From Candidatus Poribacteria bacterium (lineage in GTDB: Bacteria > Poribacteria > WGA-4E > WGA-3G): a DNA stretch of 64,000 nt. Under the pieces are notes generated by a model. The model saw nothing but the letters and a program-made list of their open reading frames with translations, was not told the origin of the DNA and did no database searches. Of the stretch, positions 27,769 to 52,797 are shown one piece after another. Position numbers and translations under genes: made by a program. The stretch covers positions 1-64,000 of the forward strand of contig JAGFCA010000011.1 of the NCBI GenBank assembly GCA_022394755.1, given 5' to 3'. Within the stretch, counting starts at the first letter, position 1; the number at the start of each line of letters is the position of its first letter.

Positions 27769-27835
27769 GTCAAAAGAAACACAACAAAATTCACATTTAA
27801 AAGTATAATATTGTGTTTATAGATTGGTTGGCATA

Positions 27836-33384: not shown

Positions 33385-34668
33385 ATGCCACAAACACCAA
33401 ATATAGTTTTTATTCTTGCTGATGATCACGGTTATGGTGATATATCAGCACATAATGGTCCTTCAATTCAAACTCCACATATTGATAGAATCGCAGAAAG
33501 TGGCGTGAGACTTACTCAATTCTATGCAAACTCCTCGGTCTGTTCACCAAGTCGGGCATCACTCATGACAGGTCGATATCCAGATAGAGTCGGTGTTCCA
33601 GGAGTTATTCGGACACATGCAAAAGACAATTGGGGGTATTTTCAACAGGATGCTATTACACTTCCATCAATTCTAAAACTTAAAAATTACAACACATCTC
33701 TAATTGGTAAATGGCATCTTGGGCTTGAAGATGAGAATCATCCTTGTAAACGGGGCTTTGACCATTTTCACGGGTTTCTCGGTGATATGATGGATGACTA
33801 TTATACACATCTTCGCCATCAGAATAACTATATGCGTCGAGACTTTGAAACAATTGATCCAAGAGGTCACGCAACCGACTTATTCTCCGATTGGAGTGTT
33901 GAGTTCATCAAAGAACAGGTACAATCCTCCGAACCATTCTTCCTTTATCTTGCCTATAATGCACCTCACACTCCTATTCAACCACCGGACGAATGGATTG
34001 ATAGAGTGAAGAACCGTGAACCAGATATTTCTGAACAAAGGGCAAAATATATTGCACTCGTTGAACATATGGATGCAGGTATAGGACGGGTACTTGATTC
34101 TCTTGAAAAAACAGATCAACTCTCCAACACTCTTGTCATCTATACATCGGACAACGGTGGTCAATTGGGGGTTGGTGCACATAATGGACCATTGCGTGGT
34201 CAGAAGGGTGAAATGTATGAAGGCGGTATACGTGTTCCTACTTGTGCTATGTGGGAAGGACATATACCAGATGGACATGTTTCAGATCAAGTAGGTATGA
34301 TTATGGATTTCTATCCAACACTTTGTGATATAACGGGTATTCCAATTAACCATGAAATTGAGGGACAGTCTATACTAAAGACCTTACAAGGAGAAAAACA
34401 GGATTTCTCGGAACGTCTACTCTACTGGATTCGAAGAGAAGGGGGACAACAATTCTTAGGTGATTGTCAACATGCTATTAGACATGGGGATGTAAAACTC
34501 TTACATAACAGACCATTTGAACCTCTTGAACTTTACAACCTATCAGAGGATCCATTAGAAGCTACTGATATGGCAACAACAAATACAGATCAATTCAGAG
34601 AGATGGGAAATCTATTCCGACAAGAGATACAAAAATCTGGCAGCATCCCTTGGCAAAAGAATAATTAA
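33385..34668 (+). CDS. Type I sulfatase (arylsulfatase family), intact
   Basis: The 427-residue protein has the metal-binding start NIVFILADDHGYGD, the formylglycine motif CSPSRASLMTGRYP near residue 52, LIGKWHLGL, FFLYLAYNAPHTPIQPP and YTSDNGGQLGVGAHNGPLRG, all standard for the family. No signal peptide is seen, so it is either cytoplasmic or exported by another route. It needs a formylglycine-generating enzyme; the SUMF1-fold proteins of this window lack the required cysteines. It follows the mannonate-dehydratase-like gene after 116 bases, with GGAG upstream of the ATG. Confidence 0.92.
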   Translation: MPQTPNIVFILADDHGYGDISAHNGPSIQTPHIDRIAESGVRLTQFYANSSVCSPSRASLMTGRYPDRVGVPGVIRTHAKDNWGYFQQDAITLPSILKLKNYNTSLIGKWHLGLEDENHPCKRGFDHFHGFLGDMMDDYYTHLRHQNNYMRRDFETIDPRGHATDLFSDWSVEFIKEQVQSSEPFFLYLAYNAPHTPIQPPDEWIDRVKNREPDISEQRAKYIALVEHMDAGIGRVLDSLEKTDQLSNTLVIYTSDNGGQLGVGAHNGPLRGQKGEMYEGGIRVPTCAMWEGHIPDGHVSDQVGMIMDFYPTLCDITGIPINHEIEGQSILKTLQGEKQDFSERLLYWIRREGGQQFLGDCQHAIRHGDVKLLHNRPFEPLELYNLSEDPLEATDMATTNTDQFREMGNLFRQEIQKSGSIPWQKNN

Positions 34669-35072: not shown

Positions 35073-35789
35073 TTGAGTAATGAAAATAAAAATGATATCG
35101 ATTCAAAATTAAAAGAAATCTTGGATAGTGAGTCAGATATTATGGTAGAGAATACTGATGAGACTGTAGATCCTGTTAAGAATTCCACTATAGATAACAT
35201 GGAATTACAACAAGAAAATTCTCTCGAAAAGATAAACCAGTCTTTAACTGAATTACTCGAAATATTCGAAAAACACATCTCTGGTAATCAGAATCAAATA
35301 CAGATGTTTGATAAAATGTATACCGAAATGAAGGACTATAAAGAGAATTTTCTACTTGATGTACTTCATAAACCCGTAATTCATAACTTAATTCAACTGT
35401 ACGATAGTTTTCTATCACTCGAATCTCAACTATCTTGTCTTATTGATGATAACAATGACAACACTCTATTAAATGAGTTAGTACAATATAATAGTAATTT
35501 ACAAAATTTTCGTTATGAACTGGAAGAAGTATTATACCGTTTGGATGTAACTCCTTACAAGGATTCGCCTGATACATTGGATAGGCAGTTACACAAGACA
35601 CGGAAAGTCATATCTACAGATGATCCAAATTTGGATCAGAAAGTTGCAGAAGTGCATAAAATTGGATTCTATTGGCGTGAGAAAGTGTTTCGGCCGGAAG
35701 ATGTAACCATTTATCGTTATATATCCTCTACTGATGAATCTGAAAATGGAAACACACATAATTCTTCAGATGAACTAAGGGGGAATTAA
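35073..35789 (+). CDS. Divergent GrpE-like nucleotide exchange factor
   Basis: The 238-residue protein begins with an acidic, disordered stretch of about 60 residues, then a long helix (about 60-110), a helical region, and a small C-terminal beta domain with VHKIGFYWREKVFRPEDVTIYRY, which matches the GrpE C-terminal pattern of K-x-G-x-x-x-x-x-R-V-x-R-P-x-x-V. GrpE proteins release ADP from DnaK. Length is larger than usual (about 190). The start is TTG with GAGGGG eight bases upstream. Its stop codon touches the ATG of the DnaK-like gene, so the two are co-translated. Confidence 0.78.
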   Translation: MSNENKNDIDSKLKEILDSESDIMVENTDETVDPVKNSTIDNMELQQENSLEKINQSLTELLEIFEKHISGNQNQIQMFDKMYTEMKDYKENFLLDVLHKPVIHNLIQLYDSFLSLESQLSCLIDDNNDNTLLNELVQYNSNLQNFRYELEEVLYRLDVTPYKDSPDTLDRQLHKTRKVISTDDPNLDQKVAEVHKIGFYWREKVFRPEDVTIYRYISSTDESENGNTHNSSDELRGN

Positions 35790-37385
35790 ATGGGTAAAGT
35801 TGTTGGAATAGATTTAGGTACGACATTTTCTGTGATTGCACATATAAATGAGCATGGACAACCTGAAATTATACCAAATTTAGAAAGTGATCGAATTACA
35901 CCTTCGGTTGTAATGTTTGAAGATAATCTGGTAACAGTTGGAAAAATTGCTAAACAAAATGCCAGAGCTGTCCCTGAACAGATTGTTGAGTTCATAAAAA
36001 GAGAGATGGGAAAATCAAAAACAAATTTCTTTCGTACATTCGAGGAAAAAGACTATTCACCTGAGGAACTTTCTTCACTAATTTTGATGAAACTGAAACA
36101 GGATGCAGAGATTTATTTGAATGAAGAAGTAACTGATGCTGTAATCACTGTACCTGCATATTTTCATGACGCAGAAAGAGAAGCAACGCGAAATGCTGGA
36201 AAAATCGCTGGATTTAATGTGCTACAAGTTCTAAACGAACCTACAGCAGCTGCTCTTGCTTATGGTATTGATCAACTTGGTAATAACCAGAATGTGTTTG
36301 TGTTTGACCTCGGTGGAGGCACATTTGATGTAACTATCATGCAAGTCTCTGAATCAGAAATTAAAATGTTGGCAACGAATGGAGATCATCGGTTAGGAGG
36401 TAAGGATTGGGACGATAAAATAATTACTTATGTTGCTGAGATGTTTGAGATTGAACATGGTGAAAATCCGCTGGATGATCTTCATACATATCAAGACCTT
36501 CAACTGGATGCCATTGGGGCAAAAGAATCGTTATCTCAACGTCAAAGATCATTAATTGTCTGTGGTTATAATGGGAAGACAACACGGGTCGAATTACAGC
36601 GTGAAAAATTTGAAGAACTTACTACAGATCTACTTGAAAGAAGCAGAACTCTTTGTGAGTTAGTATTAGATGAAGCAGAAATGTCCTGGGCTGATATTGA
36701 CAAGATTCTATTGGTTGGTGGTTCGACACGGATGCCAATGGTACAGGAAATGATTCGCTCAATTAGTGGGAAAGAGATTAATCCACATGAAGTTAATCCT
36801 GATGAGGTCGTCGCATTAGGGGCTGCTATTCAAGGAACTCTTCGTCAAATCACTGATGATACCATTGAAACACCGGATATGCCAGAAGCTGTCATTGAAC
36901 GATTTATTGGTCCTAATGGTGCTCCAAAAGTCACTGTAACAGATGGTGCTACACATAATCTGGGTCTTGTCGTCCTTAATTCAGAACGAGACTATATTGT
37001 TCATGTCATGATCCCCAAAATGACTGCTGTACCCTGTGAAATTGCAGATCAATTCTTGACTGTTGATGAAAATCAACAAACTGTACTAATTGAAGTAGTA
37101 CAAGGTCTTGAACAAGATCAACCGAAGGAACAAATTCCATTCTTTGATGAATATAAACTCGGAGAATGCATACTTGAGTTACCTTTTGGATTGCCACAAG
37201 GTTCTCCAATAGAGGTAAATTATAAATATAATTTAGACCAAAATCTTGAGGTGACAGCAAAATCATTGACTGATGACGGTCCTACTGCTGTTTTTGATAT
37301 CTTTTCAATAATTGATAGACCAACCCTGAATGAAGAAGAGGTATCACAAGCACAGACAGATCTTCAAGACCTTACAGTTGAATAG
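35790..37385 (+). CDS. Lidless DnaK/Hsp70 paralogue
   Basis: The 531-residue protein has a complete Hsp70 ATPase domain: GIDLGTTFS at 6-14, VPAYFHDAER, VFDLGGGTFDVTI at 171-183 and ILLVGGSTRMPMVQ at 306-319. The hydrophobic linker (normally D-V-L-L-L-D) reads KVTVTDG at about 380-386, after an insertion of about 20 residues. The beta substrate-binding half follows, to about 490, but the helical lid and EEVD-like tail are absent; housekeeping DnaK has about 640 residues. So it should bind ATP and partners, with altered coupling. It is flanked by a GrpE-like gene and by nine genes with J-like N-terminal modules. Confidence 0.9.
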   Translation: MGKVVGIDLGTTFSVIAHINEHGQPEIIPNLESDRITPSVVMFEDNLVTVGKIAKQNARAVPEQIVEFIKREMGKSKTNFFRTFEEKDYSPEELSSLILMKLKQDAEIYLNEEVTDAVITVPAYFHDAEREATRNAGKIAGFNVLQVLNEPTAAALAYGIDQLGNNQNVFVFDLGGGTFDVTIMQVSESEIKMLATNGDHRLGGKDWDDKIITYVAEMFEIEHGENPLDDLHTYQDLQLDAIGAKESLSQRQRSLIVCGYNGKTTRVELQREKFEELTTDLLERSRTLCELVLDEAEMSWADIDKILLVGGSTRMPMVQEMIRSISGKEINPHEVNPDEVVALGAAIQGTLRQITDDTIETPDMPEAVIERFIGPNGAPKVTVTDGATHNLGLVVLNSERDYIVHVMIPKMTAVPCEIADQFLTVDENQQTVLIEVVQGLEQDQPKEQIPFFDEYKLGECILELPFGLPQGSPIEVNYKYNLDQNLEVTAKSLTDDGPTAVFDIFSIIDRPTLNEEEVSQAQTDLQDLTVE

Positions 37386-37462
37386 AACTCCTTCACCTAT
37401 TATCATATTCTTACATACTATCATTTTAATTTCTTAAATGTAGAAACATCAGGAACATCTAT

Positions 37463-38842
37463 ATGTCCGATCGAGATGAATTTATCTCATTTGTATCAGA
37501 TTTCAAAGTAGTATCACCTACTATCTCACAGGAGCAACGAAAAGGTCTTTTGCGAAGAGGTGTTAACCAACACGGTCTCCAAATTGATGATGTAAATGAT
37601 ATTTTGAATAATTCAGGATTGATAATTGGTGAACAACAGGTAAATTTCTTTGAAGTATTAGACTTTAAGGTTGAAGATTTTGAAACTTACACCGAATCGG
37701 AGATTGAAGAACGTGTTCAGTCAACACACCAAAGTCTATATAGGAAATCCTTGAATTCAGGTGGACGTCCACGACCGGATGGAAAATCAGAAGAACAGTG
37801 GAGAAAAATTTTAAATGATGCACGGGATACCCTGTTAAATTCCAATAAAAGACAAGAACATATTTCTATACTCACTGCAAATTATGGTAATCAGATTCTT
37901 GATGAATCTGAAATTAATCAAACAACATCTTCTATAAGGTCTTCAACAATTACTGTTGAGGATAGGGTTATAGCAGTACATAAAAAGGTTGTAAATTCTA
38001 TAGTATTTTCACCTGATGGCACTTGTATTGCCAGTGGAAGTGCGGATAAATCAATATGTATCTGGGATGTGAATACTGGTGAAAAAAAACACACGCTAAA
38101 TGGTCATAAGGATCAAGTAAGATCTGTTGTGTATTCACCAGATGGACTAACAATTGTAAGTGGGAGTAATGACCGGACAGTATGTATCTGGAATGCTAAT
38201 TCCGGTGAGTTAAAAAAACGATTAATTGAACAAAAAGATAAGATTAGTTCCGTTGCTTATTCTCCTGATGGGAAAACTATCGCAAGTGGGAGTTATAATG
38301 GAACTATTCAATTATACAATGCTGAGACAGGGGAGCCTAAAATCCTACTCAAAGGACATAGAAATTGGGTTAGTTCCGTTTCTTATTCTCCTGATGGGAA
38401 AACAGTCGCATGTGCAAGTTATGACGGAAATGTCTATTTATGGAATTCTGAATCAGGGGAAAATACGCATGTTCTTACAGGTCATAAATTTAGTGTTATT
38501 GCAGTAACCTATTCCCCCAATTCTGAAACAATCATAAGTATTGATCTGCAAGGAACAATTCTTGCATGGAATGCTATCTCAGGGAAATCCAAGATCCTTC
38601 CAAAGGGTTTGATGTCTTGGATTAGTTCAGTAACATATTCTCCAGATACAACTATTCTCGCATGTGGTAGTTATCATGGGTCAATCACTTTATGGGATAT
38701 AAATAGCTGGGAAGAAATAAAAACTATTACTGGACATACCTCAACTGTAAAAGCACTATCCTATTCTCCAAATGGAAGGATTCTGGCAAGTTGTGGTGGA
38801 GATGGTAAGGTACGAATTTGGAATTCATCAATAAATAAGTAA
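37463..38842 (+). CDS. Array protein 1: adaptor plus J-like module with a seven-bladed WD40 propeller
   Basis: Residues 1-58 are helical (EFISFVSDFK, then EQRKGLLRRGVNQHGL). Residues 60-135 look like a J domain: FFEVLDFKVEDF as helix I, then a helix II ending YRKSLNSGGRPRPDG in place of Y-H-P-D, then EQWRKILNDARDTLLNSNKR as helix III. From about 175, seven WD40 repeats follow (for example FSPDGTCIASGSADKSICIW). WD40 propellers bind proteins or peptides. It is the only WD40 member of the array and is closest to the Hsp70 gene (77 bases). No enzyme motif is present. Confidence 0.85.
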   Translation: MSDRDEFISFVSDFKVVSPTISQEQRKGLLRRGVNQHGLQIDDVNDILNNSGLIIGEQQVNFFEVLDFKVEDFETYTESEIEERVQSTHQSLYRKSLNSGGRPRPDGKSEEQWRKILNDARDTLLNSNKRQEHISILTANYGNQILDESEINQTTSSIRSSTITVEDRVIAVHKKVVNSIVFSPDGTCIASGSADKSICIWDVNTGEKKHTLNGHKDQVRSVVYSPDGLTIVSGSNDRTVCIWNANSGELKKRLIEQKDKISSVAYSPDGKTIASGSYNGTIQLYNAETGEPKILLKGHRNWVSSVSYSPDGKTVACASYDGNVYLWNSESGENTHVLTGHKFSVIAVTYSPNSETIISIDLQGTILAWNAISGKSKILPKGLMSWISSVTYSPDTTILACGSYHGSITLWDINSWEEIKTITGHTSTVKALSYSPNGRILASCGGDGKVRIWNSSINK

Positions 38843-38927
38843 AACAATATGGAGCCACCAACCATCCATGCAAGGTATATTACAACGAAATTACTACTGA
38901 TCATATAATTTCAAATAGGTTCAATTC

Positions 38928-40211
38928 ATGTCCAAATCCGATGACTTCATTGCATTCATCAGTACTTTCAAAGATGCATCCCCTACGATTTCCGATGAAC
39001 AACGGAAAGGTTTTCTCAGGCTTGCAGTGGAAAAATATGGATTAACCTTTGATGAAGCAACATCTATATTTGATGCTTCGGGGATAGTAATTGGGGAAAT
39101 AGATAATCTACTTGAAATCTTTGGATTAACTGTCACAGAGATTAAAAGATATAATCAATCTGAAATTGTCAATCGCGTTGAGTCAATCCACAAGAAACTA
39201 TATAATGAATCTTTAATGTCGGGTGGTCGTCCACGGCAAGACGGCAGGTCAGAAGAACAGTGGCGTAGGATATTAAATCAAGCAAGAGATACACTAACTG
39301 ACTCGAAAAAACGTAACGAATATCTATCTTCACTACAATATAAAGAACCCTTCAATGAAATTAATTCAGGAGCAACAAGTCTTGAGGATATGTCATTTAT
39401 ACCTGAAGGTGAGTTTGAAATGGGTAGTAATGATGAAGAGGCGTTTGATGATGAGAATCCGGTTCATACTGTTTTTTTAAATGAATTCTATATTGACCAA
39501 TATCCTGTAACCAATGCACAATACAAGGTATTCCTTGATGCTAATCCACACTGGAATAAGCATGAAATGCCAAAAAAATATGGGGATGTTGATTATCTTA
39601 AACATTGGCGATGGGATACTTTTCCGAAAGGTGAAGCAGAATTTCCTGTTAGCAATGTTAGTTGGTATGCTGCTATGGCTTATGCACAATGGAAAGGTAA
39701 ACGATTGCCAACTGAGGCGGAATGGGAAAAAGCTGCACGCGGTGGATTAGTGGGTTATAATTATCCTCACGGTAATTCTATAGATGCAACTTCTGCGAAT
39801 TTTGACTGGAATATTGGTAAAACCACTCCTATTGGAAAATACCCTGCAAACGGATATGGTCTCTATGATATGTGTGGAAATGTGTGGGAATGGTGTCTTG
39901 ACAAATATGAGAAATCATTTTATAAAAATTCTCCCGATCGAAACCCTATTGCTAGTGAACAGACAATTGATTCCTTAAATCACAACTTCTTAGAGATCGA
40001 TTCCAATCGGGTTTTACGGGGTGGTTCATGGCGTATTCCTGCATCATTAATCAGAACAGCAAAACGAAATGCTGAAGCACCATGGTTTTCACTGAATGTT
40101 ATTGGGTTTCGGTGTGTATATCAAGATTTACATAAGGATAAATCTCTTATTTCTCCTTCCGATGGATCACTTATCTCACATTATTCAAAATTAGATTATG
40201 CCAAAACGTAA
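38928..40211 (+). CDS. Array protein 2: adaptor plus J-like module with a SUMF1-fold domain
   Basis: The 427-residue protein has the shared N-terminal module (residues 1-135, with GGRPRQDGRSEEQWRRIL) and, from about 150, a formylglycine-generating-enzyme-like (SUMF1) fold: MSFIPEGEFEMGS, QYPVTNAQYKVFL, VSWYAAMAYAQWKGKRLPTE, DMCGNVWEWCLD and RVLRGGSWRIPAS...IGFRCVY. The catalytic Cys pair of true FGE (after GGSY) is absent; the segment reads GGSWRIPASLIRTA. So it is more likely a binding domain than a sulfatase maturase. Its end overlaps the next gene by 14 bases. Confidence 0.85.
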   Translation: MSKSDDFIAFISTFKDASPTISDEQRKGFLRLAVEKYGLTFDEATSIFDASGIVIGEIDNLLEIFGLTVTEIKRYNQSEIVNRVESIHKKLYNESLMSGGRPRQDGRSEEQWRRILNQARDTLTDSKKRNEYLSSLQYKEPFNEINSGATSLEDMSFIPEGEFEMGSNDEEAFDDENPVHTVFLNEFYIDQYPVTNAQYKVFLDANPHWNKHEMPKKYGDVDYLKHWRWDTFPKGEAEFPVSNVSWYAAMAYAQWKGKRLPTEAEWEKAARGGLVGYNYPHGNSIDATSANFDWNIGKTTPIGKYPANGYGLYDMCGNVWEWCLDKYEKSFYKNSPDRNPIASEQTIDSLNHNFLEIDSNRVLRGGSWRIPASLIRTAKRNAEAPWFSLNVIGFRCVYQDLHKDKSLISPSDGSLISHYSKLDYAKT

Positions 40212-41484
40212 TGAGTATATTGAATTGATTAATGAATTCAAGACTGTCTCCCCAACAATTACAGATCAACAACGGATCGGTCTTCTTCGACGGGGTGTTC
40301 AACAATATGGCATATCAATTTCTGAAGCAGAGGACATAATTCAATCATCAGGCTTAATTGTTGGTGTAAAAATAGATTACTTCAAAATATTAGGGATTTC
40401 CATAAAAGATATACAGAATAAAAACGAGGAATTAATCACCTCAGAAATTCATTCGAAACACAAAGAACTATATAACACCTCATTAAAAGCAGGAGGTCGT
40501 ATACGATCTGATGGTAAAACTGAAGAACAGTGGCGGATCATACTAAATGAAGCACGCGATACACTTAAGAATGTTGAAAAACGTAAATACTATATTGCAG
40601 CATTACAAGCCGATGTTCAACCTGTAATTGAATTCCTACATGAGAATCCACCTATTCAAGATGCTGATGTATTAGGAGAATCAATTTCATTACAACCCGT
40701 AATTGAAGATAGTATGGCACTCATCCCCGCTGGAGAATTTCTGATGGGGAGTGAGGACATTGAAGCATACAATGACGAAAAGCCAATACACACTGTATAC
40801 ATTGATGACTTTTATATCGATCAATATCCTGTTACAAATATAGAATATAAAGAATTTGTCGATGCTAATCCTGAATGGGGTAAATCTAAAAAATGGTATG
40901 AGACTACCAGAGATACTATAAGTATTGACAAAAAATATCATGACGGTGATCACCTAAAAAACTGGAAAGGAAATAATTATCGGAGACATTGTGATTACCA
41001 TCCTGTAACTTGGGTTAGTTGGTATGGAGCAATGGCTTACGCACTATGGAAGGGTAAACGACTACCAACGGAAGCTGAGTGGGAAAAAGCTGCACGGGGA
41101 GGTTTAGTCGGACAGAAATATCCATGGGGTAACTCTTCAATTGTAAAACATCCTAACAGCGGCAACTTTTTCCATTATACCAACAAAGTTGGTCAAAATT
41201 ATGAAAATGGGTATGGTATTTATGATATGGCTGATAATGTTTTTGAATGGTGTATAGATTTATGGGATGAAAACTACTATACGCATTCTCCATATAATAA
41301 TCCTATCGCTGATGGATATTTAGTAGATATTTTACAGGATTTTACAAGTGTCATTACTCCGAGAGTGATTCGGGGCGGATCCTCTGTAATTACACCAATA
41401 AACACTCGTGTTTCATATCGACATAGAAATACACCTAATTATACAAGCTTTCATATCGGATTTCGTTGTGTAAAATCTATATAA
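40198..41484 (+). CDS. Array protein 3: adaptor plus J-like module with a SUMF1-fold domain
   Basis: The 428-residue protein has the shared module (GVQQYGISISEAEDII, then FKILGISIKDI and GGRIRSDGKTEEQWRIIL) and a SUMF1 domain from about 175 (MALIPAGEFLMGSED, QYPVTNIEYKEF, VSWYGAMAYALWKGKRLPTE, DMADNVFEWCID, RVIRGGSSVITP, IGFRCVKSI). The usual G-N-x-W-E-W block is D-N-V-F-E-W, slightly changed. No Cys follows the GGSS motif. It starts inside the previous gene (14-base overlap), so the two are translationally coupled, the only such overlap in the array. Confidence 0.85.
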   Translation: MPKRNEYIELINEFKTVSPTITDQQRIGLLRRGVQQYGISISEAEDIIQSSGLIVGVKIDYFKILGISIKDIQNKNEELITSEIHSKHKELYNTSLKAGGRIRSDGKTEEQWRIILNEARDTLKNVEKRKYYIAALQADVQPVIEFLHENPPIQDADVLGESISLQPVIEDSMALIPAGEFLMGSEDIEAYNDEKPIHTVYIDDFYIDQYPVTNIEYKEFVDANPEWGKSKKWYETTRDTISIDKKYHDGDHLKNWKGNNYRRHCDYHPVTWVSWYGAMAYALWKGKRLPTEAEWEKAARGGLVGQKYPWGNSSIVKHPNSGNFFHYTNKVGQNYENGYGIYDMADNVFEWCIDLWDENYYTHSPYNNPIADGYLVDILQDFTSVITPRVIRGGSSVITPINTRVSYRHRNTPNYTSFHIGFRCVKSI

Positions 41485-41536
41485 ATTAAATAAAATAATA
41501 ATCATCTACTTTTGGCTCATAAGAAATTATTCAATT

Positions 41537-42753
41537 ATGACAGAAAACAAAGAATTCATAGAATTTGTAAATAGATTAAAAACACTATCACCTATAATAA
41601 CAGAAGAACAGCGTATTGGTCTTATACGCCAAGGTGTTCATGAGTACGGTCTCACAACTGATGATGCCGAAAATATTCTGAAAACTTCAGGATTAATTGT
41701 TGGTGAACAGGAAAATCATTTTGAGATATTAGGTATCCCTATTGAAGATATTAAAAATCTAACTGAATCTGATATCGTAGCGTATGTAAAATCTGTACAT
41801 GAAGAACTGTACAGAGCTTCTTTGAATGCGGGGGACGTCCACGGTCTGATGGTAGAACAGAAGAAGAGTGGCGAAAACTGTTAAATCAAGCAAGAGATAA
41901 ATTAATAGATCCTAATGTACGATGGTTACATATTCCAAGTGAAGAAAAAGACATTCAATCAGAAACCAAAGGAACGCAGATTATTACAGATAACATGGTG
42001 TTGATTCCACATGGAGAGTTACAAATGGGAAGTGATGATCTTGGGTCTGACAAAAACGAAATACCTATCCAAACAGTATATGTTAGGGAATTCTATATAG
42101 ACGCTTTTCCTGTAACAAATATTGAATTTAAGCTATTTTTGGATAAAAATCCTAAATGGAAAACTTCCAAACTAATGGATGGGTTTACCATGAGAAAATA
42201 TCGTGATAGTGATTACTTAAAAACTTGGGACAGGAACAAATTTCCAGCCGGAAAAGAAGATCATCCGGTAACTTGGGTAAGTTGGTATGCAGCTATGGCT
42301 TATGCTCAATGGTTAGGCAAAAGATTGCCTACAGAAGCAGAATGGGAAAAAGCCGCCCGCGGTGGTTTAGATGGAGAGAAATACCCATGGGGGAATTCTC
42401 TTGATAAATCGTTGGCAAATTATGGTATAAACTTAGGCAGTACAACCCCAATTCGACATTATCCTCCGAATAATTATGGAATATACGATATGGTGGGAAA
42501 TGTAAATGAATGGTGTTTAGATAACAGAGAGCCAGACTTATATCAATCTTCACAAGGGATTAATCATGTCATGGATGACACCATTCAGAATATAGTAAAA
42601 GCATATACAAACATTAGAAAAAAGCGTATAGTAAGAGGCGGTTCATGGCATACTGCTGTTAAAGACCTACGAATATCCTACAGAAAGGATTTACCTCCAA
42701 CGACAACTGCAAGTGTTACAGGTTTTCGTTGTGTGAAACCTACCAACAAGTAA
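41537..42753 (+). pseudogene. Array protein 4: adaptor plus J-like module with SUMF1-fold domain, one-base frameshift
   Basis: The first frame (41537 onward) gives the shared module up to LYRASLNAG, then fails. In the paralogue at 42796 the same DNA reads GGA GGA CGT CCA CGG; here a G run at 41830-41834 is one base short, so the frame shifts. Adding one G restores GGRPRSDGRTEEEW and joins the SUMF1 part (MVLIPHGELQMGSDD, VSWYAAMAYAQWLGKRLPTE, DMVGNVNEWCLD, RIVRGGSWHTAVKD, TGFRCVK), for 405 residues. The C-terminal part could only be made from the ATG at 41995. Error or decay cannot be told apart here. Confidence 0.8.
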
Positions 42754-42795
42754 GAAATATTATTCTTATATTAAAATCCTAATTGAGGATCAAGA

Positions 42796-44073
42796 ATGCG
42801 TGAATATGATGAATTTCTCACTGTAATCAACACCCTCAAATCATTATCACCTGTAATAACAGAAGAACAGCGAATTGGTCTTATACGACAAGGCATTCAA
42901 GAATATGGTCTTACTACAGAGGAAGCGGATAATATTCTGAGAACCTCAGGATTAATTGTTGGTAAACAAGATAGTTATTTTGATGTCTTAGGAATCTCAA
43001 TTGAAGAACTGGAAAAACTCAGTGAAGCTGATATCATAGAATATGTTGAAGCTGTATTCGAAAGACTCTACCGAGCTTCTTTGAATGCTGGAGGACGTCC
43101 ACGGTCTGATGGTAGAACAGAAGAAGAATGGCGAAACATTTTGAATCAAGTAAAAGACACATTAATTGATCCAAGAAAAAGACATAACTACATTTCAACA
43201 CTTCATCATGAGGATACCCAGAACATTGAAAACGAAGTGTCAACAGAAAGTCTGACAACACCACAGGGATTATTGAAAGAAATTGTTCCAATTGGTATTG
43301 ATGTACCTGAAGATATGGTATATATACCAGCAGGAGAATTCCAGATGGGTAGCGAACATGCTGATGCTGAGGAAGATGAAAAGCCAATTCATACTGTTTC
43401 TGTTAATGAATTTCTTATGGATAAACATCCTGTTACAAATCGGGAATTTAGAGAATTTCTACAAAATAATCCTCAGTGGCGTAAACCTGAATTCCTTCAT
43501 AGTCATATCAAAATGGGTTTACATGATGGATCATATTTGAAGGATTGGCAGATGAGCATGTATCCAGCAGGGAAAGGTGATCATCCAGTTACCCAGGTGA
43601 GCTGGTATGCCGCTATGGCTTATGCACAATGGAAAGGTAAACGATTGCCAACTGAGGCAGAATGGGAAAAAGCTGCACGTGGTGGTTTGGAGGGAAAAGA
43701 CTATTCATTTGCTAATATTGAAGAGATCGACATTACAAAATCAACTTTCAATTCCGACGATACTGTTAGGATCGGACTTACACCGGAAAACAATTACGGA
43801 TTGTATGATATGTGTGGAAATGTCTGGGAATGGTGTCTTGATGCATATAATGCCGATTTCTATAACCACGCACCACAGAATAACCCTTTCTATGGACCAA
43901 ACAGCAGAGAATGGGTTTTAGATAACTTTCGACTTATAACTATCGGACGGGTCTTACGTGGTGGTCCATGGGGTATTGAATCTATAGGAGCTCGTGTTTC
44001 ACAACGTCTAAGAAGTCATCCAACTGATACATTATCAACATATAGCTTTCGTTGCGTAAAAGATATAGGATAA
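42796..44073 (+). CDS. Array protein 5: adaptor plus J-like module with a SUMF1-fold domain
   Basis: The 425-residue protein is the clearest case of the shared module: EEQRIGLIRQGIQEYGLTTE (helical), FDVLGISIEELEKL (J helix I), FERLYRASLNAGGRPRSDG (helix II and the loop without HPD) and WRNILNQVKDTLIDPRKRHN (helix III). The SUMF1 domain starts near 175 (MVYIPAGEFQMGSE, VSWYAAMAYAQWKGKRLPTE, DMCGNVWEWCLD, RVLRGGPWGIESIG, SFRCVKDIG). It lacks FGE cysteines. The ATG follows GAGG. A stretch of its middle is almost identical in DNA to array protein 2. A 480-base repeat-rich gap follows. Confidence 0.86.
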   Translation: MREYDEFLTVINTLKSLSPVITEEQRIGLIRQGIQEYGLTTEEADNILRTSGLIVGKQDSYFDVLGISIEELEKLSEADIIEYVEAVFERLYRASLNAGGRPRSDGRTEEEWRNILNQVKDTLIDPRKRHNYISTLHHEDTQNIENEVSTESLTTPQGLLKEIVPIGIDVPEDMVYIPAGEFQMGSEHADAEEDEKPIHTVSVNEFLMDKHPVTNREFREFLQNNPQWRKPEFLHSHIKMGLHDGSYLKDWQMSMYPAGKGDHPVTQVSWYAAMAYAQWKGKRLPTEAEWEKAARGGLEGKDYSFANIEEIDITKSTFNSDDTVRIGLTPENNYGLYDMCGNVWEWCLDAYNADFYNHAPQNNPFYGPNSREWVLDNFRLITIGRVLRGGPWGIESIGARVSQRLRSHPTDTLSTYSFRCVKDIG

Positions 44074-44554
44074 AACCGCATTTGTTATAAATATAATTTA
44101 ATTTCCTTATCATCTATAGGTACTTTAGTTTGGACAATCCTGAGTGTTATTGTCAATTTTCAAACTGTTCTTGGTTTTCACCACATTATTGAGTAAATCC
44201 GATTATAAGATATATTAATAGATATGAATAAAACAGCTCCCTGCAGGACGAAATGTGTGTAGAATCACTATAACGTACAATGGTAAAGCCCCAGAGGGGT
44301 GAAATGTGAGAGAATTACTATAACATACAATGGTAAAACCCAAGAGGGGCGAATGTCTGTAGAATTACTATAACATACAATGCTCAAGTACAAGAGGGGC
44401 GAAATGTGAGAGAATTACTATAACATACAATGGTAAAGCCCCAGAGGGGTGAAATGTCTGTAGAATTACTAAAACAAATAATGGTAAAGCCCCAGAGGGG
44501 CGAAATGTCTGTAGATCAAAACTGTCCAAACTATAGTAATAGGTATACTTCATT
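44074..44554. other. Gap with the 50-bp repeat array between array proteins 5 and 6
   Basis: The 480-base gap is far longer than the other gaps of the array (about 50-90 bases, except one). Its second half is the tandem repeat listed separately. The first half is AT-rich and holds no gene. It may separate two transcription units. Confidence 0.55.
44234..44516 (+). repeat. Tandem 50-bp repeat, five full units and one partial
   Basis: Units start at about 44234, 44285, 44335, 44385, 44435 and 44486, each 50-51 bases. A unit holds a GC-rich palindrome, GCCCCAGAGGGGC or a variant, then GAAATGT, a GAGAGAATTACTATAAC block and ATACAATGGT. The copies differ at a few places. There are no unrelated spacers, so it is not a CRISPR array. 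A related 51-bp repeat lies at 63605-63690. The hairpin could pause transcription or act as a recombination site. Confidence 0.85.
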
Positions 44555-45844
44555 ATGGCAAGACGTGAAGAATTCATTCAGATTATCAACACTTTTAAAA
44601 CGGTGTCAGCAATTATAACAGACAATCAAAGACGAGGTCTGTTGCAACAGGCTGTACAAACATACAATCTCTCTATTCAGGAAGGTATAGAGATTTTGGA
44701 TTCCTTAGGAATAGTTGTCGGTGAACAGACAAACTAGCTTGAGATTTTAGGTCTATCCCTACAGGAAATACAAGGTAAGGATGACCAGACAATCACGGAT
44801 ATTGTTAAAATAGCACATGATGACTTATATAAAGCATCGTTAGCTGCTGGTGGACGCATAAGATCAGATGGAAAAACTGAAGATCAGTGGCGAATGATAC
44901 TGAATCAAGCACGAGATATTCTGTGTGATATAAACAAAAGAAACGAATATATTACAAATCTACTTCAAGATGAATCTGAAGATTACACAATCCAAAATTC
45001 TTCCACAGGTCACAGTACCAATCCAAACGAAATACAGACCAGTGGAATTCCATCTGAAGCTGCCATTCAACAAATAATAGATCCTGTAGAAATTGATATA
45101 CCTTCTGAAATGGTATTGATCCCTTCAGGAGTATTTTTGGCAGGATTACAAGACAAAAAAATCAATGAGAGTGAGACATCGTCACATAATGTATACTTAA
45201 ATGGCTTTTTGATAGATAAATATCCTGTAACTAATTCTGAATTCAGTGTCTTTCTATCAGAAAACGAACTGTGGCAAAAATACAACATTTCTAAGAAATA
45301 CAACAGTGGAAAATATCTTAGTTCTTGGAATGGAAATAGCTATCCAAAAAATAAAGGTGATGATCCGGTTGTTGGTGTGAGTTGGTATGCAGCAATGGCT
45401 TATGCTAAATGGATAGAAAAACGGCTACCTACAGATATTGAATGGGAAAAAGCAGCGCGCGGCGGATTAACTGAAAAAACATACCCTTGGGGTGAAGATA
45501 TTACTAATAACCTGGCGAATTACGGAATGAGAGTAGGGAGTACTACCCCTGTTGGGACCTACCCACCAAATGAATATGGTGTATATGATATAGTAGGAAA
45601 TGTATGGGAATGGTGCCTAAATCAATATCAAGAAAATTCAGCGAATAGTAAACCAAATATATCTATTCAAGAGATTAGTGATATTATAGATTCCTACTTA
45701 GAAATTGAAAGTGATCGTGTATTACGGGGAGGTTCATGGGCAAGTAGTGAGCAAGCTCTCTCAGTGGGATATAGAGGTTTTGCCACCCCTAATATTACAT
45801 ATTATAGTTACGGATTTCGATGTGTAAAGGATATTCATAGTTAA
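44555..45844 (+). pseudogene. Array protein 6: adaptor plus J-like module with SUMF1-fold domain, in-frame amber
   Basis: The frame from the ATG at 44555 covers 430 codons with one TAG at 44735-44737. It falls where the paralogues have a Tyr or Phe (EQTN-stop-LEILGLSLQEI compared with NYFEVLGLSIEEL), so one base change (TAG to TAT or TAC) would mend it. The J-like module continues as AAGGRIRSDGKTEDQWRMIL, then the SUMF1 domain (MVLIPSGVFLAG, VSWYAAMAYAKWIEKRLPTD, DIVGNVWEWCLN, RVLRGGSWASSEQ, YGFRCVKDI). The first metal-side block is weaker (FLAGLQ in place of F-x-M-G-S). Restart at 44894 would lose the J-like part. Confidence 0.8.
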
Positions 45845-45902
45845 AATACTTCATTCCTTATAAAACTAATTAATAGTGTTCATCTATTTAGGAATTACCT
45901 GA

Positions 45903-47279
45903 ATGAAAAAACGTGAAGAATTCATAGATACTATCAATTTATTAAGATCTACATCCAATACCATCTCTGTAGAACAACGGACAGGTATTTTAAAACAAGG
46001 TGTACAAGAATACGGACTATCAATTAAAGAAGCCGATATAATTATAAGAGAAACAGGATTAAGAGTCGCGGACACTATTAATTACTTTAGAGCCTTAGGT
46101 TTGTCCAATCATGAATTTGAAAATCTAAATGAAAACACTATTACATCAATTATAGAAGATGCACATAGACAACATTATACAGATTCATTAAAAGCAGGTG
46201 GACTTCCTCGTACAGACGGGAGAACACAAAAACAGTGGAGAATTATTCTAAATTATGCAAGAGATACTTTAATAGATCCTCAAAAACGTGAGAAATATTT
46301 ATCTCAATTATTAAGTGAAGAATACACTTCAGATAATTTCAATGAGGATTTATTAAACATACATTCCACTGATATTGAAAACGGTAATCAAAAGCTTGAT
46401 GCCCGAATATCACTAAATAATCAGACTCCCCTACTACAATCACCGCAGATAGATTCAAATCAGAAGGTAATTACCCCTACTGATATTCCTTCAGATATGG
46501 AATATGTACCTGCTGGCGATTTCAAAATGGGAAGTAATGATGAAAAAGGTAGCAACAGAGAAAAACCCGCACATGACGTGTATGTTGATGACTTTTACAT
46601 CGACACGTATTTAGTTACCAATGCAAAATATAAAGAATTTTTAGATGCTAACCCGCAATGGACAAAACCAATAAAATGGTCTCTCTTTGAAAAAAGCAAG
46701 AAATCCTATATCAATGAAAAATATCATGACGGTGATTACCTCAAACATTGGCATGAAAATACCTACCCTGATGATAAAGCAGACCATCCTGTAACGTGGG
46801 TGAGTTGGTATGCTGCAATGGCTTATGCTCAATGGATCGGAAAACGGCTACCTACAGAAGCAGAATGGGAAAAAGCTACACGCGGTGGAATATCTGACCA
46901 GAAGTATCCTTGGGGTGAATCAATTGATTATACCATCGCTAATTATAATAACTATATTGGTAAAACAACTTCTGTCGGTCAGTATCCTGCTAATGGATAT
47001 GGAATTCATGATATGATAGGCAATGTTTGGGAATGGTGTCTTGACGAATACCAGGAAAATTTCTATTCAATTTCAGAACCCAAAAACCCAATCTGTGGAA
47101 TAAGTACGGTTGAATCAATAGAATATAGTAATGTGGACCATAGAAAAGAACGAGTATTGCGTGGAGGTTCTTGGCTTGATGCATCTCAATTCGTGCGGTC
47201 TGCATCTCGATATAGGAATTCACCAACACGCACTCTCGCAAGAATTGGGTTTCGTTGTGTAAAAATGGTTAACTCTTAA
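45903..47279 (+). CDS. Array protein 7: adaptor plus J-like module with a SUMF1-fold domain
   Basis: The 458-residue protein has the shared module (RTGILKQGVQEYGLSIKE, then FRALGLSNHEFENL and GGLPRTDGRTQKQWRIIL) and a longer linker of about 60 polar residues before the SUMF1 domain (MEYVPAGDFKMGSND, TYLVTNAKYKEFL, VSWYAAMAYAQWIGKRLPTE, DMIGNVWEWCLD, RVLRGGSWLDASQF, IGFRCVKMV). Its variable C-terminal segment reads RSASRYRNSPTRTLAR, close in style to the variable regions of DGR-targeted FGE-fold proteins. It lacks FGE cysteines. Confidence 0.85.
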   Translation: MKKREEFIDTINLLRSTSNTISVEQRTGILKQGVQEYGLSIKEADIIIRETGLRVADTINYFRALGLSNHEFENLNENTITSIIEDAHRQHYTDSLKAGGLPRTDGRTQKQWRIILNYARDTLIDPQKREKYLSQLLSEEYTSDNFNEDLLNIHSTDIENGNQKLDARISLNNQTPLLQSPQIDSNQKVITPTDIPSDMEYVPAGDFKMGSNDEKGSNREKPAHDVYVDDFYIDTYLVTNAKYKEFLDANPQWTKPIKWSLFEKSKKSYINEKYHDGDYLKHWHENTYPDDKADHPVTWVSWYAAMAYAQWIGKRLPTEAEWEKATRGGISDQKYPWGESIDYTIANYNNYIGKTTSVGQYPANGYGIHDMIGNVWEWCLDEYQENFYSISEPKNPICGISTVESIEYSNVDHRKERVLRGGSWLDASQFVRSASRYRNSPTRTLARIGFRCVKMVNS

Positions 47280-47335
47280 TCTTAAACGTTTGATTTTATT
47301 GCTTAGAATGTTAATTAACAATATGGTGGTTTGTT

Positions 47336-48682
47336 GTGTCTAATCGTAACGAATTTATTTCAATCGTCAATACACTTATATCCCTATCAAAATCAATTAC
47401 AGATGAGCAGTATAAGGCTCTTCTTCAACAAGCTGTTCAGGAATATGACCTAACTGTTGATGAGGCTTCAGATATCTTGAGGGCTTATGGATTGGTTATT
47501 GGTAAAAGGGTTAACTATTTTGAAGTATTAGGTCTATCTATTGAAGAACTTACCAATCAAGAAGAAATTGAGATTGCTTCACTTATTGAAAATGAGCATA
47601 AAAGACGTTATACAGAATCCTTACAAGCGGGTGGACTACCCCGTTCAGATGGCAGAACACAAGAACAGTGGCGAACATTACTAAACGAAGCATTTGAAAC
47701 TTTAATAGATCCCCATAAACGGACTGAATACATTACTACAATTCACTCTGAAGAATCGCAACCTGGTGCTCCTTTACCTCAAGAGGAACTATCTTCAACA
47801 GATGAGGCAACTTTCGGTATTTCTATTACAAAAGATATGGCACTCATACCAGTAGGTGAGTTCCAAATGGGAAATGATAACGAGAGAGCAAATGATAGTG
47901 AAATACCAGTACATACTGTTTACGTAGATACATTTTATATGGATAAATATCCAGTTACGAATATACAATACAAGCAATTTATTGATGCAAATCCACTATG
48001 GAGTAAACCAACAGGACGGTATGGATTAACGGGTTTGAAGACCTTGTCTGTTTTTCGTAAATTCCACGATGGAGATTACCTAAAAGATTGGAACGGTAGC
48101 AATTTTCCGGTAGGAAAAGATTCCCATCCTGTTACGCACATTAGTTGGTATGCAGCAATGGCGTATGCACAATGGATAGGGAAACGTTTACCAACAGAAG
48201 CAGAATGGGAAAAAGCAGCCCGCGGTGGCTTGACAGAACAAAAATATCCTTGGGGAAATGTCTTGGATTTAAACAAGTCATATTATGACAAAAACTTTAA
48301 TCAAACCATATCTGTTGGAGAATACCCTCCAAATGATTATGGATTATTTGACATGGTGGGAAACGTCTGGGAGTGGTGTCTGGATGCGTATAATTCGAAG
48401 TATTATATTTCTTCACCGAAACGGAATCCGATTGCTGGTATGAATTCTAAGGATGATTTGGATATACTAATTTCCAATTTTAGAAAGGTTGAAACTGATC
48501 GCGTCTTGCGGGGTGGAACGCAGTTTACTACCTCAGAACCCATCCATATAGGTACACGTTGGGCAGCTTCACCTGAAACCACTGGTATTCTTGCCTCAAA
48601 TCCGACTAAGGTGGCAACACTTCTATCTCCAGGATTGATAGCAAATATTGGGTTCAGATGTGTTCGGGATGTGAATATGTAA
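47336..48682 (+). CDS. Array protein 8: adaptor plus J-like module with a SUMF1-fold domain
   Basis: The 448-residue protein starts with GTG (MSNRNEF, as in most paralogues). It has the shared module (LLQQAVQEYDLTVDEASDIL, FEVLGLSIEELTN, AGGLPRSDGRTQEQWRTLL) and the SUMF1 domain (MALIPVGEFQMGNDN, KYPVTNIQYKQF, ISWYAAMAYAQWIGKRLPTE, DMVGNVWEWCLD, RVLRGGTQFTTSEPIH, IGFRCVRDV). Compared with the others it has about 22 extra residues between the GG motif and IGFRCV, shared only with array protein 9, so the two form a subgroup. No FGE cysteines. Confidence 0.85.
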   Translation: MSNRNEFISIVNTLISLSKSITDEQYKALLQQAVQEYDLTVDEASDILRAYGLVIGKRVNYFEVLGLSIEELTNQEEIEIASLIENEHKRRYTESLQAGGLPRSDGRTQEQWRTLLNEAFETLIDPHKRTEYITTIHSEESQPGAPLPQEELSSTDEATFGISITKDMALIPVGEFQMGNDNERANDSEIPVHTVYVDTFYMDKYPVTNIQYKQFIDANPLWSKPTGRYGLTGLKTLSVFRKFHDGDYLKDWNGSNFPVGKDSHPVTHISWYAAMAYAQWIGKRLPTEAEWEKAARGGLTEQKYPWGNVLDLNKSYYDKNFNQTISVGEYPPNDYGLFDMVGNVWEWCLDAYNSKYYISSPKRNPIAGMNSKDDLDILISNFRKVETDRVLRGGTQFTTSEPIHIGTRWAASPETTGILASNPTKVATLLSPGLIANIGFRCVRDVNM

Positions 48683-48760
48683 AACAGTCTTAATATAGTG
48701 TTTATACTTTCAACCGTAACTGATAGTTTGAGTTAAGGATAAGTGATTTAGATTTGTTCC

Positions 48761-48874
48761 GTGGCTTATGCTAAATGGATTGATAAACGTCTCCTGACAG
48801 AAACAGAATGGGAAAGAGTCACATGCACTCTTGAAAGAATTGGGATTCGTTGTGTAAAATTAACAACAACATAA
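48761..48874 (+). pseudogene. Remnant of a SUMF1-fold array gene
   Basis: A 37-codon frame begins VAYAKWIDKRLLTETEWERV and goes directly into RIGIRCVKLTTT before TAA. The first part is the central A-Y-A-x-W-x-x-K-R-L-P-T-E block and the second is the C-terminal I-G-F-R-C-V-K block, so about 130 residues between them are missing. It is an internal-deletion relic between array proteins 8 and 9. Confidence 0.8.
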
Positions 48875-48929
48875 TTCCGGGTGTTTTACGAATTTAATAT
48901 ATCTACACATTAATTATTTAGGGTTATGT

Positions 48930-50315
48930 ATGTCAAATCGTGAAGAGTTCATTGCAGTCGTAAATACACTGAAATCACTCTCCAATTCAATCTCAGATGA
49001 ACAGAATAGGAGTCTGTTACATCAAGCTGTCAATGACCATGGTATTTCAATAGAAGATGCAATAGAGATAATTAATTCATTAGGGATAACTGTTGGGGAA
49101 GCCATAAATTACATAGAAATATTAGAACTTTCTATTGAAGATTTTAGCTTACAAAATGAATCAACCATTGTTGAGAAGCTTGACATAGCACATAAAAAGC
49201 AATACTCAGAATCATTACAAGCAGGTGGGTTACCACGTCAGGATGGGAGAACCCAAGAACAATGGCGTAAAATTCTCAATCAAGCATATGATACATTAAA
49301 AGATCCAATTAAACGAAAAAATCATATTGAAGCTATACAAACTCAGACATTTCTTGAGGAAAGACCGTTCATAAGAGAAAATAAAACACCCATCTCTGAA
49401 GATGTCTCATTACAAGTAGCAGTACCAGAAGATATGGTTCTAATTCCATCTGGTAATTTTCTGATGGGTAATAGTGGTGATAATGCAAATTCACGCGAAA
49501 CACCTGTTCATACTGTCGATACTGATGAATTTTATATTGACAAATATCCTGTTACAAATGAACAATTTAAAGCGTTTGTAGATGAAAACCCATTATGGCG
49601 GAAACCCTCCTCTGGATTATGGTTAGATATTCAATATTGGTATGAGAAAGGAGATCAACCTTCAAGATTCATATATGATAAATATCATGATGGATATTAT
49701 CTCAAAAATTGGAAAAACAACAGATTCCCACTTGAGAAGGAAGATCATCCTGTTACACATGTCAGTTGGTATGCTGCAATGGCATATGCAGAATGGGTTG
49801 GAAAACGACTACCAACTGAAGCAGAATGGGAAAAAGCCGCACGCGGAGGTATGGATGGACAGAAATATCCATGGGGAGATATAATGGATTCTAAAAATGC
49901 CAATTGTACTGAGGAAGCATATAGAACTACCCCAAAAGGCAAGTATCCTGCTAACAAATTCGGTATCTATGATATGGTTGGGAATACATGGGAATGGTGC
50001 CTTGACGAATATAATATTGATTTCTATTCTTCTTCAGTTTCATCGAATCCTATTGCAGGTGTAGACTCTGATAAGGATATCAAAGAGCTCCTAGCCAATT
50101 TTAGACATGTTGACAGTGATCGTGTTTTGCGTGGAGGTAATTCCTTTATTTCGTCTGAACCGATCCATACATCCGCCCGATGGGGTGGCAAACCTATTCT
50201 TACAGAACTTGTGGCAAACTATTCAAGTCTATATTTACCTACACTTGCTAAGAGTATTGCAGCAAACATCGGTTTCAGATGTGTAAGAGATAAAAACGTA
50301 AAGATGAATTCCTAA
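48930..50315 (+). CDS. Array protein 9: adaptor plus J-like module with a SUMF1-fold domain
   Basis: The 461-residue protein is the last array member. It has the shared module (NRSLLHQAVNDHGISIEDAI, then IEILELSIEDFSLQ and AGGLPRQDGRTQEQWRKIL) and a SUMF1 domain (MVLIPSGNFLMGNS, KYPVTNEQFKAFVD, VSWYAAMAYAEWVGKRLPTE, DMVGNTWEWCLD, RVLRGGNSFISSEPIH, IGFRCVRDKN). With array protein 8 it shares the SEPIH motif and the long C-terminal insertion. There are no FGE cysteines. A GH95 gene follows after 58 bases and is probably not part of the system. Confidence 0.85.
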   Translation: MSNREEFIAVVNTLKSLSNSISDEQNRSLLHQAVNDHGISIEDAIEIINSLGITVGEAINYIEILELSIEDFSLQNESTIVEKLDIAHKKQYSESLQAGGLPRQDGRTQEQWRKILNQAYDTLKDPIKRKNHIEAIQTQTFLEERPFIRENKTPISEDVSLQVAVPEDMVLIPSGNFLMGNSGDNANSRETPVHTVDTDEFYIDKYPVTNEQFKAFVDENPLWRKPSSGLWLDIQYWYEKGDQPSRFIYDKYHDGYYLKNWKNNRFPLEKEDHPVTHVSWYAAMAYAEWVGKRLPTEAEWEKAARGGMDGQKYPWGDIMDSKNANCTEEAYRTTPKGKYPANKFGIYDMVGNTWEWCLDEYNIDFYSSSVSSNPIAGVDSDKDIKELLANFRHVDSDRVLRGGNSFISSEPIHTSARWGGKPILTELVANYSSLYLPTLAKSIAANIGFRCVRDKNVKMNS

Positions 50316-50373
50316 TTCTTGTGATAATCAATTTTAAGAGACATTGATTTCACATCCTAAAGAGAGATTAATT

Positions 50374-52680
50374 ATGATAAACAAAAATAGTTATGTATTA
50401 TGGTATAACAAACCAGCAAAAGAGTGGACTGATGCATTACCAGTTGGAAATGGTCGACTTGGTGCAATGGTATTTGGTGGTGTCGAACAAGAACGCATAC
50501 AACTCAATGAAGAGAGTCTTTGGGAAGGTTGTTTTCAGGATACAAATAATCCGAAAGCTCTTGAAGCTTTGCCAATCATACAAAAATTGCTGTTTGAAGA
50601 TAAAAATGATGAAGCGACTGCTCTTGCAGGCGAAACAATGTTGGGGATTCCACATCGAATAAAATCATATCAATCTTTAGGTGACATTCTCATTGATTTT
50701 ATCAACAATAGTGAAATTAATGAGTATCAACGGGAACTGGATATTGATACTGGTATAGCAAAGACTACCTATCAGACTGGAAACGAGAGTATAAAAAGAG
50801 AGGTCTTTGCAACTGCGGTTGATGATCTCATTGTTATCCGTATTGAATCTGATTCAGGAAATGGTGTTAGTTTTGATGTTACAATGACACGAGAACAAGA
50901 TGCCTCGGTCGAAATAATCTCGGACTCTATCCTAAAACTTGATGGCGAATGCAGTGATGGCGGTTTACGATTTTCCGCATACCTAAAGATAATTAATGAG
51001 GATGGGGAAGTAGAATCACATGATGATCGATTGTCTATTCGAACAGCAAAAGGTGTAACACTGTTATTATCGGGGGCAACCAGTTATATCAATCAGAAAG
51101 ATGCAACTGGAAATCCGCATGAATTGTGTGAAGGATACCTGAAATCTGCAGAAAGTAAATCCTATAATCAACTCCGTTCTGATCACATTCAGGAACATCA
51201 ATCACTTTTCCAACGTGTGGACATTAACCTCGGTTCAAGTGATACAGAGAATCTACCTACTGATGAACGTTTAGCAAAAGTCAAGGAAGGTGCATCTGAT
51301 CCAGGTCTTGTTTCACTATATTTTCAGTTTGGACGCTATCTATTAATGGGCAGTTCAAGACCGGGATGTTTACCTGCCAACCTACAGGGCGTTTGGAACC
51401 ATCACATGAAAGCACCATGGAACAGTGATTACCATACAAATATTAATCTACAGATGAATTACTGGGTTCCAGAAGTGTGTAATCTCCCAGAATGTCATAA
51501 GCCACTTTTTGATTATATGGATACACTGGTTGAACCTGGAAGCGAAACAGCAAAACGCCACTACGGTGCTGGGGGTTGGGTAGTACATCACCTATCTGAT
51601 ATATGGGGATTTACAACACCCGCAGACGGTACTTGGGGTATTTCTCCTGTGGGGGCTGCATGGTTAAGTGAACACGTTTGGGAACACTATCTATTTGGTG
51701 GTGATGAGGAGTTTCTTAGAGAACAGGGTTATCCCTTGATGAAAGGTGCTGCACGTTTTATGCTTGATTTTCTAATTGAAGCACCAGAAGGTACACCTTT
51801 TGCTGGAAAGCTTGTTACAAATCCATCCCATTCACCAGAAAATAGTTTTCAAAAACCTGATGGAACCCGTTCACTATTCACTTATGCAGCAACAATTGAC
51901 CTTGAAATTATACATGAACTCTTCACAAATTGTATTGATTGTCTTGATGTGCTCGGAATAGATGCAGAGTTCCGAGAAGAATTGGTTTCTTCACTGGAAC
52001 GTTTGGCACCCCTACAGATAAGTGAAAAAACAGGTAGACTGCAGGAATGGATATACGACTATGACGAACCAGAACCGGGACATAGACACATGTCTCATAT
52101 GTATGGTCTACATCCAAGTTGTCAAATTACATTACGCGGAACTCCAGAATTAGCAGAGGCTGCACGAAAATCTTTGGAATATCGATTACAACACGGTGGA
52201 GGACAGACGGGTTGGAGTCGTGCATGGTTGATAAATTTCTTAGCACGACTTGAAGATTCAGAAGAAGCATATAACCATCTACATGCACTCCTGGCAAGAT
52301 GTACCTTAACCAACCTATTCGATACACATCCACCATTCCAAATTGACGGGAACTTTGGAGGTACAGCAGGAATTGCAGAAATGTTACTCCAGAGTCATGA
52401 TGGTGAAATTAACCTCCTCCCTGCACTACCAAAAATATGGGATACGGGTTATGTTAATGGATTACGCGCCAGAGGTGGATTTGAAGTGGATATGGAATGG
52501 GAAAATGGAACACTTACTAACTCAAAAATTACATCTAATCTTGGGAGAGTATGTTCTGTACGTTCGACTAAACCTGTTTCGGTGTCCTGTGAAGGTCAAG
52601 CTATCGAATCAACACAATCTGATTTAGTCATAACCTTCAACACTGAGATTGGAAAAACCTACGTTATATCTGCTACATAG
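50374..52680 (+). CDS. GH95-family alpha-L-fucosidase-like glycosidase
   Basis: The 768-residue protein has the GH95 layout: an N-terminal beta-sandwich ([29 protein letters not shown]), then an (alpha/alpha)6 barrel with [54 protein letters not shown] with the acid Glu and [17 protein letters not shown] with the general-base Asp. It hydrolyses alpha-L-fucosides or galactosides. The start at 50374 has AGAGAG upstream; a TTG at 50344 is less likely. There is no signal peptide, so it should act on imported oligosaccharides. A strong terminator follows. Confidence 0.92.
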
Positions 52681-52719
52681 GAATCAATCAAATTCTACCC
52701 AATCCAAGCCGTAAAAAAC

Positions 52720-52756: not shown

Positions 52757-52797
52757 AATAAATTCCAAGAATTTTGATGTTGATATTGCGATGGTAT

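Follow-up and report, generated by a model that had tools for sequence, protein, structure and literature searches.

The HPD motif is regarded as the trigger that defines J domains, and the contact between its aspartate and R167 of the partner chaperone (E. coli DnaK numbering, used throughout) as the heart of Hsp70 activation. J-like proteins without HPD, such as Pam16, are already known. In the canonical complex, contacts form between R167 and the HPD aspartate and between H33 and L391, and in simulations of this complex SBD-beta is pushed by helix III (PMC13012618). The nearest described system, judged from the parts of Kaur et al. 2020 (PMC7159879) that deal with it, is the GAP1-N2 GTPase theme that includes HSP70, GrpE, and DnaJ-FNIII proteins, in which HSP70 and GrpE genes lie next to a J-type domain joined with further modules.

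The locus described here, from a Candidatus Poribacteria bacterium, shares this arrangement, and divergent poribacterial loci further resemble GAP1-N2 systems in their Ig-like (HYDIN/DUF1573) fusions and second Hsp70. It differs from them in its up to nine paralogous FGE/WD40 proteins and in the loss of HPD, which those parts of PMC7159879 do not mention; a GAP1-N2 protein was found in 0 of 11 tested genomes, with a positive control genome, and membership in that system was rejected. With J-domain proteins in general (DnaJ/Hsp40, PF00226), the poribacterial module shares the order of helices I-II-III-IV, the L-x-D-P-x-K-R motif of helix III, and the linkage to Hsp70 and GrpE, but it lacks HPD, has a helix II about seven residues longer, falls under the Pfam cut-off, and has a partner Hsp70 without R167. 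The type IV J-like proteins (Pam16/Tim16) have in common with it the J fold and a degenerate HPD. However, the partners of Pam16 are Pam18, which is a canonical J protein, and a mitochondrial Hsp70 of the normal type, whereas here there is no nearby HPD partner, the Hsp70 is altered, and the module heads multidomain proteins arranged in arrays.

Organization and setting of the array

The window, that is, the whole stretch of DNA analysed, comprises positions 1-64,000 of contig JAGFCA010000011.1 (GCA_022394755.1) and belongs to a poribacterial genome of 5.2 Mb (assembly 94% complete), of the phylum that takes its name from sponge symbionts. Its forward (+) strand, to which all array coordinates refer, carries an operon-like run at 35073-50315 made up of a GrpE-like gene, an Hsp70 gene, and nine genes with the module. 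The genes for the GrpE-like protein (35073-35789; 238 aa, Pfam GrpE 7.7e-9) and for the dedicated Hsp70 (35790-37385; 531 aa, Pfam HSP70 1e-120) abut. The first array protein (37463-38842) joins the module (37463-37882) to a WD40 beta-propeller and the remainder join it to an FGE-sulfatase domain, namely proteins 2 (38928-40211), 3 (40198-41484), 5 (42796-44073, the 425-aa ORF studied here), 7 (45903-47279), 8 (47336-48682), and 9 (48930-50315), plus two broken genes. Gene 4 (41537-42753) has a frameshift inside the loop region, with its second part starting at about 41809, and gene 6 (44555-45844) has an in-frame TAG (44735-44737) inside the module. These two broken genes and a decayed FGE remnant at 48683-48929 indicate that, in this genome, array copies are being lost or replaced. 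Directly 5' of gene 6, a 50-base unit is repeated 5.3 times in tandem (44249-44515).

In the studied ORF, the FGE domain, which has a C-type lectin fold, occupies residues 172-422 (43309-44064; PF03781, 1.2e-56). The Cys-x4-Cys pair of the enzyme was found in 0 of 67 array FGE domains and, given this absence, they are probably non-catalytic binding domains. Repeated proteins with FGE domains devoid of catalytic cysteines are also known among the FGE/C-type-lectin variable proteins diversified by DGRs. However, a search of the 94% complete assembly for a reverse transcriptase (PF00078) gave no match, and for several array slots the best counterpart sits at the equivalent position of the array in related species, so that DGR-type diversification was rejected; nothing points to rapid diversification, and the array proteins look like stable, old paralogues instead of a hypervariable repertoire. 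In relatives, the C-terminal partners of the module include ankyrin or Ig-like (HYDIN/DUF1573) domains; the protein at L084:6945-9086 joins it to a long run of ankyrin repeats (Pfam Ank 1e-113).

The array adjoins a defense-like island on the reverse strand (22790-31002, -), which codes for a Sacsin-domain protein of 1382 aa (Pfam SACS 2e-17, PADLOC TmtA 2e-101) and for an EcoO109I-type restriction endonuclease whose gene overlaps that of a DNA methylase, with a GH32 glycosidase gene between the two. PADLOC assigned no defense family to the module protein. Sugar-related genes flank the array on both sides (32270-34668 and 50344-55821), including those for a UxuA-like dehydratase, a sulfatase, a GH95 glycosidase, a laminin-G-like protein, and a sodium:solute symporter.

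A J-type module without HPD

The N-terminal region of about 140 residues of the array proteins has two parts. Residues 1-56 (42796-42963) form a three-helix domain (helices 2-17, 23-37, and 41-51 in the AF2 model) that has no J similarity of its own when aligned with J domains (hhalign probability 11) and is missing in divergent module proteins of about 1030 aa. The second part, residues 57-139 (42964-43212), is the J-like module, with helix I at 61-65, helix II at 77-97, a loop at 98-108, helix III at 109-124, and helix IV at 126-139. The sequence-only reading had taken this region for a J domain that has lost HPD, which the profile and structure comparisons bear out, except that the J-like interval is limited to residues 57-139 and does not extend over the whole of 42796-43230. 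The two results that the reading had named as fatal to it, a predicted structure unlike a J domain and the lack of any profile match, were both absent.

A profile of 66 module sequences compared by hhalign with an alignment of 30 true J domains matched at a probability of 89% (E 2.4e-6) over residues 58-132, about the whole J domain, and the J part alone did so at 92% (E 5e-7). Since the score was 37.3 against a maximum of 17.4 in 200 column-shuffled controls (9.3 for the reversed profile), the resemblance is beyond chance. HMMER matches to PF00226 stayed below the cut-off, compared with the profile-profile E value of 2e-6; still among sub-threshold matches, DnaJ was the Pfam family with matches in the largest number of members (20 of 66, best E 0.013), Pam16 appeared among the weak Pfam matches of two members, and nine of the 12 weak PDB sequence matches were J proteins. 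The AF2 model (pLDDT 88) shows a short helix I, helices II and III flanking the loop in the antiparallel topology of J domains, and helix IV. The best nine PDB matches found by Foldseek were eight J domains and one J-PKA chimera (probability 0.93-0.99, TM on target up to 0.72), with modest E values (0.3-1.4) because the query includes the unrelated N-terminal domain.

The motifs that had been read from the sequence were located where expected, YFDVLGISIEE at residues 61-71, LYRASLNAGGRPRSDG at 91-106, and WRNILNQVKDTLIDPRKRHNYI at 112-133, although the A-R described for helix III is V-K in the studied protein itself. The loop that replaces the HPD loop (43087-43119) begins with A98, G99, G100, and R101 and continues P-R-x-D-G, as delimited by hhalign and conservation; in the alignment, HPD lies opposite G99-G100-R101. 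The proposed A-G-G-x-P-R consensus holds broadly, with I in place of P in two window copies and S in place of A in two. Over 112 array-type modules, Y92, S95, G99, R103, D105, G106, W112, and L116 are invariant, and helix III, mostly near-invariant, is the best conserved J element. Helix II is less charged than that of DnaJ (mean +1.2 versus +2.4 over 15 residues, with overlapping ranges).

A canonical HPD was found in none of 126 distinct modules (0/126). Conservation of the new loop, also proposed from the sequence, applies to the 112 array-type modules but not to the divergent clade B, whose loop is of the GAYANVPRSDG type, nor to the copies of one genome (G029) that lack both R-x-D-G and the Trp. 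Since divergent members vary the loop while none has HPD, the alignments indicate that HPD loss is the trait of the family and that the A-G-G-x-P-R-x-D-G loop is a later fixation.

The linked Hsp70 and its genomic coupling to the module

The dedicated Hsp70 consists of an NBD, a longer linker, and SBD-beta, which is present (hhalign E 2.7e-10), and stops at the beginning of lid helix A; it thus lacks the SBD-alpha lid, with about 145 residues after the linker compared with about 250. Ahead of the linker, the dedicated Hsp70 has some 20 more residues than DnaK. In a fold search, its closest PDB folds include DnaK and lid-truncated Hsp70s; the model is of modest confidence (pLDDT 65) and was the basis for the fold assignment alone. 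The lid-less structures 2v7y and 5obu, which are of truncated DnaK, also consist of NBD and SBD-beta without SBD-alpha, whereas the linked Hsp70 is truncated naturally, has a longer linker, and has R167 replaced.

The position of R167 is Q146 in the window protein (codon 36225-36227), and among 34 linked Hsp70s it is Q in 31, H in two, and K in one, compared with R in 12 of 12 housekeeping DnaKs (11 poribacterial plus E. coli). E206 is mostly K or R and D477 mostly K, and the linker leucines 390-392 are mostly T-V-T (VTVTDG at 36930-36947, where DnaK has VLLLDV). All the ATPase residues checked are kept, namely the equivalents of K70, P143, R151, E171, D194, T199, and D201. Among 104 sites fixed in both housekeeping DnaKs and vWA-type Hsp70s, the array type departs at only nine, of which four (167, 168, 169, and 206) belong to the J site (P=0.0016), and a wider list of J-interface sites was weakly enriched for change at a borderline level (P=0.05). 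The array Hsp70s form a single clade (0.94), so that R167 may have been lost just once, in an ancestor, with no repeated co-variation. Beside divergent J-like loci, we also found fusions of Hsp70 to a C-terminal von Willebrand A domain that keep R167 (L078:1500-3584 and L084:2428-4515).

Most module loci have the Hsp70 directly upstream, usually preceded by GrpE, and no gene for an HPD-bearing J protein was seen in any of them; the genome to which the window belongs has a single housekeeping DnaK gene and two ordinary DnaJ genes with HPD, all away from the array. In a survey of 85 poribacterial genomes, 29 carry the module and 56 do not, and the array-type Hsp70 C-terminus is found in 28 of the 29 and in 0 of the 56 (Fisher 1e-21, genomes uncorrected for phylogeny). 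The exception is again G029, where a 661-aa ORF (L084:4328-6310) fuses the Hsp70 NBD, the N-terminal domain of the module proteins, and GrpE, and has K at the R167 position. Within two genera (g1 and g2) the module has a patchy distribution, suggesting gain or loss of the unit as a whole. Clade B represents a second system. Its modules, which head proteins of about 330-1050 residues without the N-terminal domain, are monophyletic among the J modules (0.985), and its Hsp70s are so among the Hsp70s (0.916), even though systems A and B coexist in several genomes. Such matched A/B phylogenies are what partner-specific descent predicts.

The module was found outside Poribacteria neither in the scan of a genome collection nor in 40 further genomes of one other phylum plus one of another, which are weak negatives. 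As far as searched, this chaperone-centered recognition array is confined to one Poribacteria family. A plasmid search with the Ig-like J protein gave one weak match in Nostoc, limited to the middle region. Other poribacterial DnaJ-like genes with partial Pfam matches (G058, G014) were discarded as candidates, since those examined code for canonical HPD proteins with no adjoining Hsp70 or GrpE.

A probable rewired Hsp70 pair and its alternatives

It is probable, in our view, that the module represents a diverged J domain and acts as a tag for docking and specificity in a dedicated Hsp70-GrpE machine whose genes lie upstream. In hand are homology to J domains and a J-type fold prediction, the absence of HPD, the strict coupling to the Hsp70 at the genome level, the altered J site with intact ATPase residues, and the fusion of the NBD, the N-terminal domain of the tag, and GrpE. 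From these we infer physical docking, ATPase stimulation, and a recognition role for the C-terminal domains. The contact between the HPD aspartate and R167 would have been lost on both sides and the pair rewired together, with the module still binding where J domains normally do (lobe IIA of the NBD, the linker, and SBD-beta), the conserved helix III driving the ATPase cycle, and GrpE resetting it. The recognition domain attached to the tag would differ from one array protein to the next (WD40 or a non-catalytic FGE/C-type-lectin fold, and ankyrin or Ig-like domains in relatives), so that one lidless Hsp70 could be directed to several targets. A bolder version, which we put forward tentatively, is that the pair is naturally orthogonal, its J domain activating the Hsp70 with neither HPD nor the partner arginine, by means of the G-G-x-P-R-x-D-G loop and helix III, and that one machine is aimed by interchangeable recognition proteins. 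In DnaK, R167H suppresses DnaJ D35N, and substitutions of R167 raise basal ATPase activity and uncouple DnaJ (PMC7289447). The linked Hsp70 may accordingly run without any J trigger, which speaks against the main reading, as do the single clade of the array Hsp70s, the sub-threshold level of the DnaJ matches, and the borderline enrichment of the wider list of interface sites.

The sequence-only reading had favored a module that holds or inhibits Hsp70. Such a module would bind without triggering hydrolysis, as Pam16 restrains the import motor. The absence of HPD from all modules and the weak Pam16 matches of two members agree with such a brake, but the linked Hsp70 lacks R167, so that even a normal HPD would miss its usual partner there, the locus has no HPD-bearing J protein to oppose, and the R167 change is restricted to the linked Hsp70, the housekeeping DnaK being normal. 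Because the linked Hsp70 has lost R167, E206, and the linker leucines yet kept its ATPase residues, a rewired cognate pair fits better than a brake on the housekeeping DnaK, and we regard the brake reading in general as unlikely. If instead the 140-residue N-terminus were a homotypic adaptor that gathers the array proteins, comparable to effector-associated domains, Hsp70 and GrpE would act on the assembly and not through the J site. This would explain the conservation of an N-terminal three-helix domain without J similarity, and the FGE, WD40, and ankyrin C-termini do resemble the conflict-system effectors described in the relevant parts of PMC7159879. However, the divergent proteins of about 1030 aa encoded beside Hsp70 keep the J part alone, and the changes in the Hsp70 cluster at the J site, which makes this assembly role rather improbable.

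The array proteins could also be dedicated substrates, folded or held by the lidless Hsp70, with the module as a recognition handle only. Both the presence of SBD-beta and the ratio of one Hsp70 to up to nine similar proteins would suit this, but a handle requires neither a J fold nor change in step with the J site, and FGE domains fold in many bacteria that have no such Hsp70 array system; we think this very unlikely.

Returning to the rewired pair, a limited literature search found no described case in which an HPD-less J domain is matched by an Hsp70 that has lost the partner arginine. Both halves of the contact are absent here from a system of 29 poribacterial genomes, whose cells also possess a normal DnaK and DnaJ. 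The system offers a natural test of whether the HPD-R167 contact is indispensable, and the Hsp70-J pair, possibly orthogonal to the housekeeping one, may be usable for engineering.
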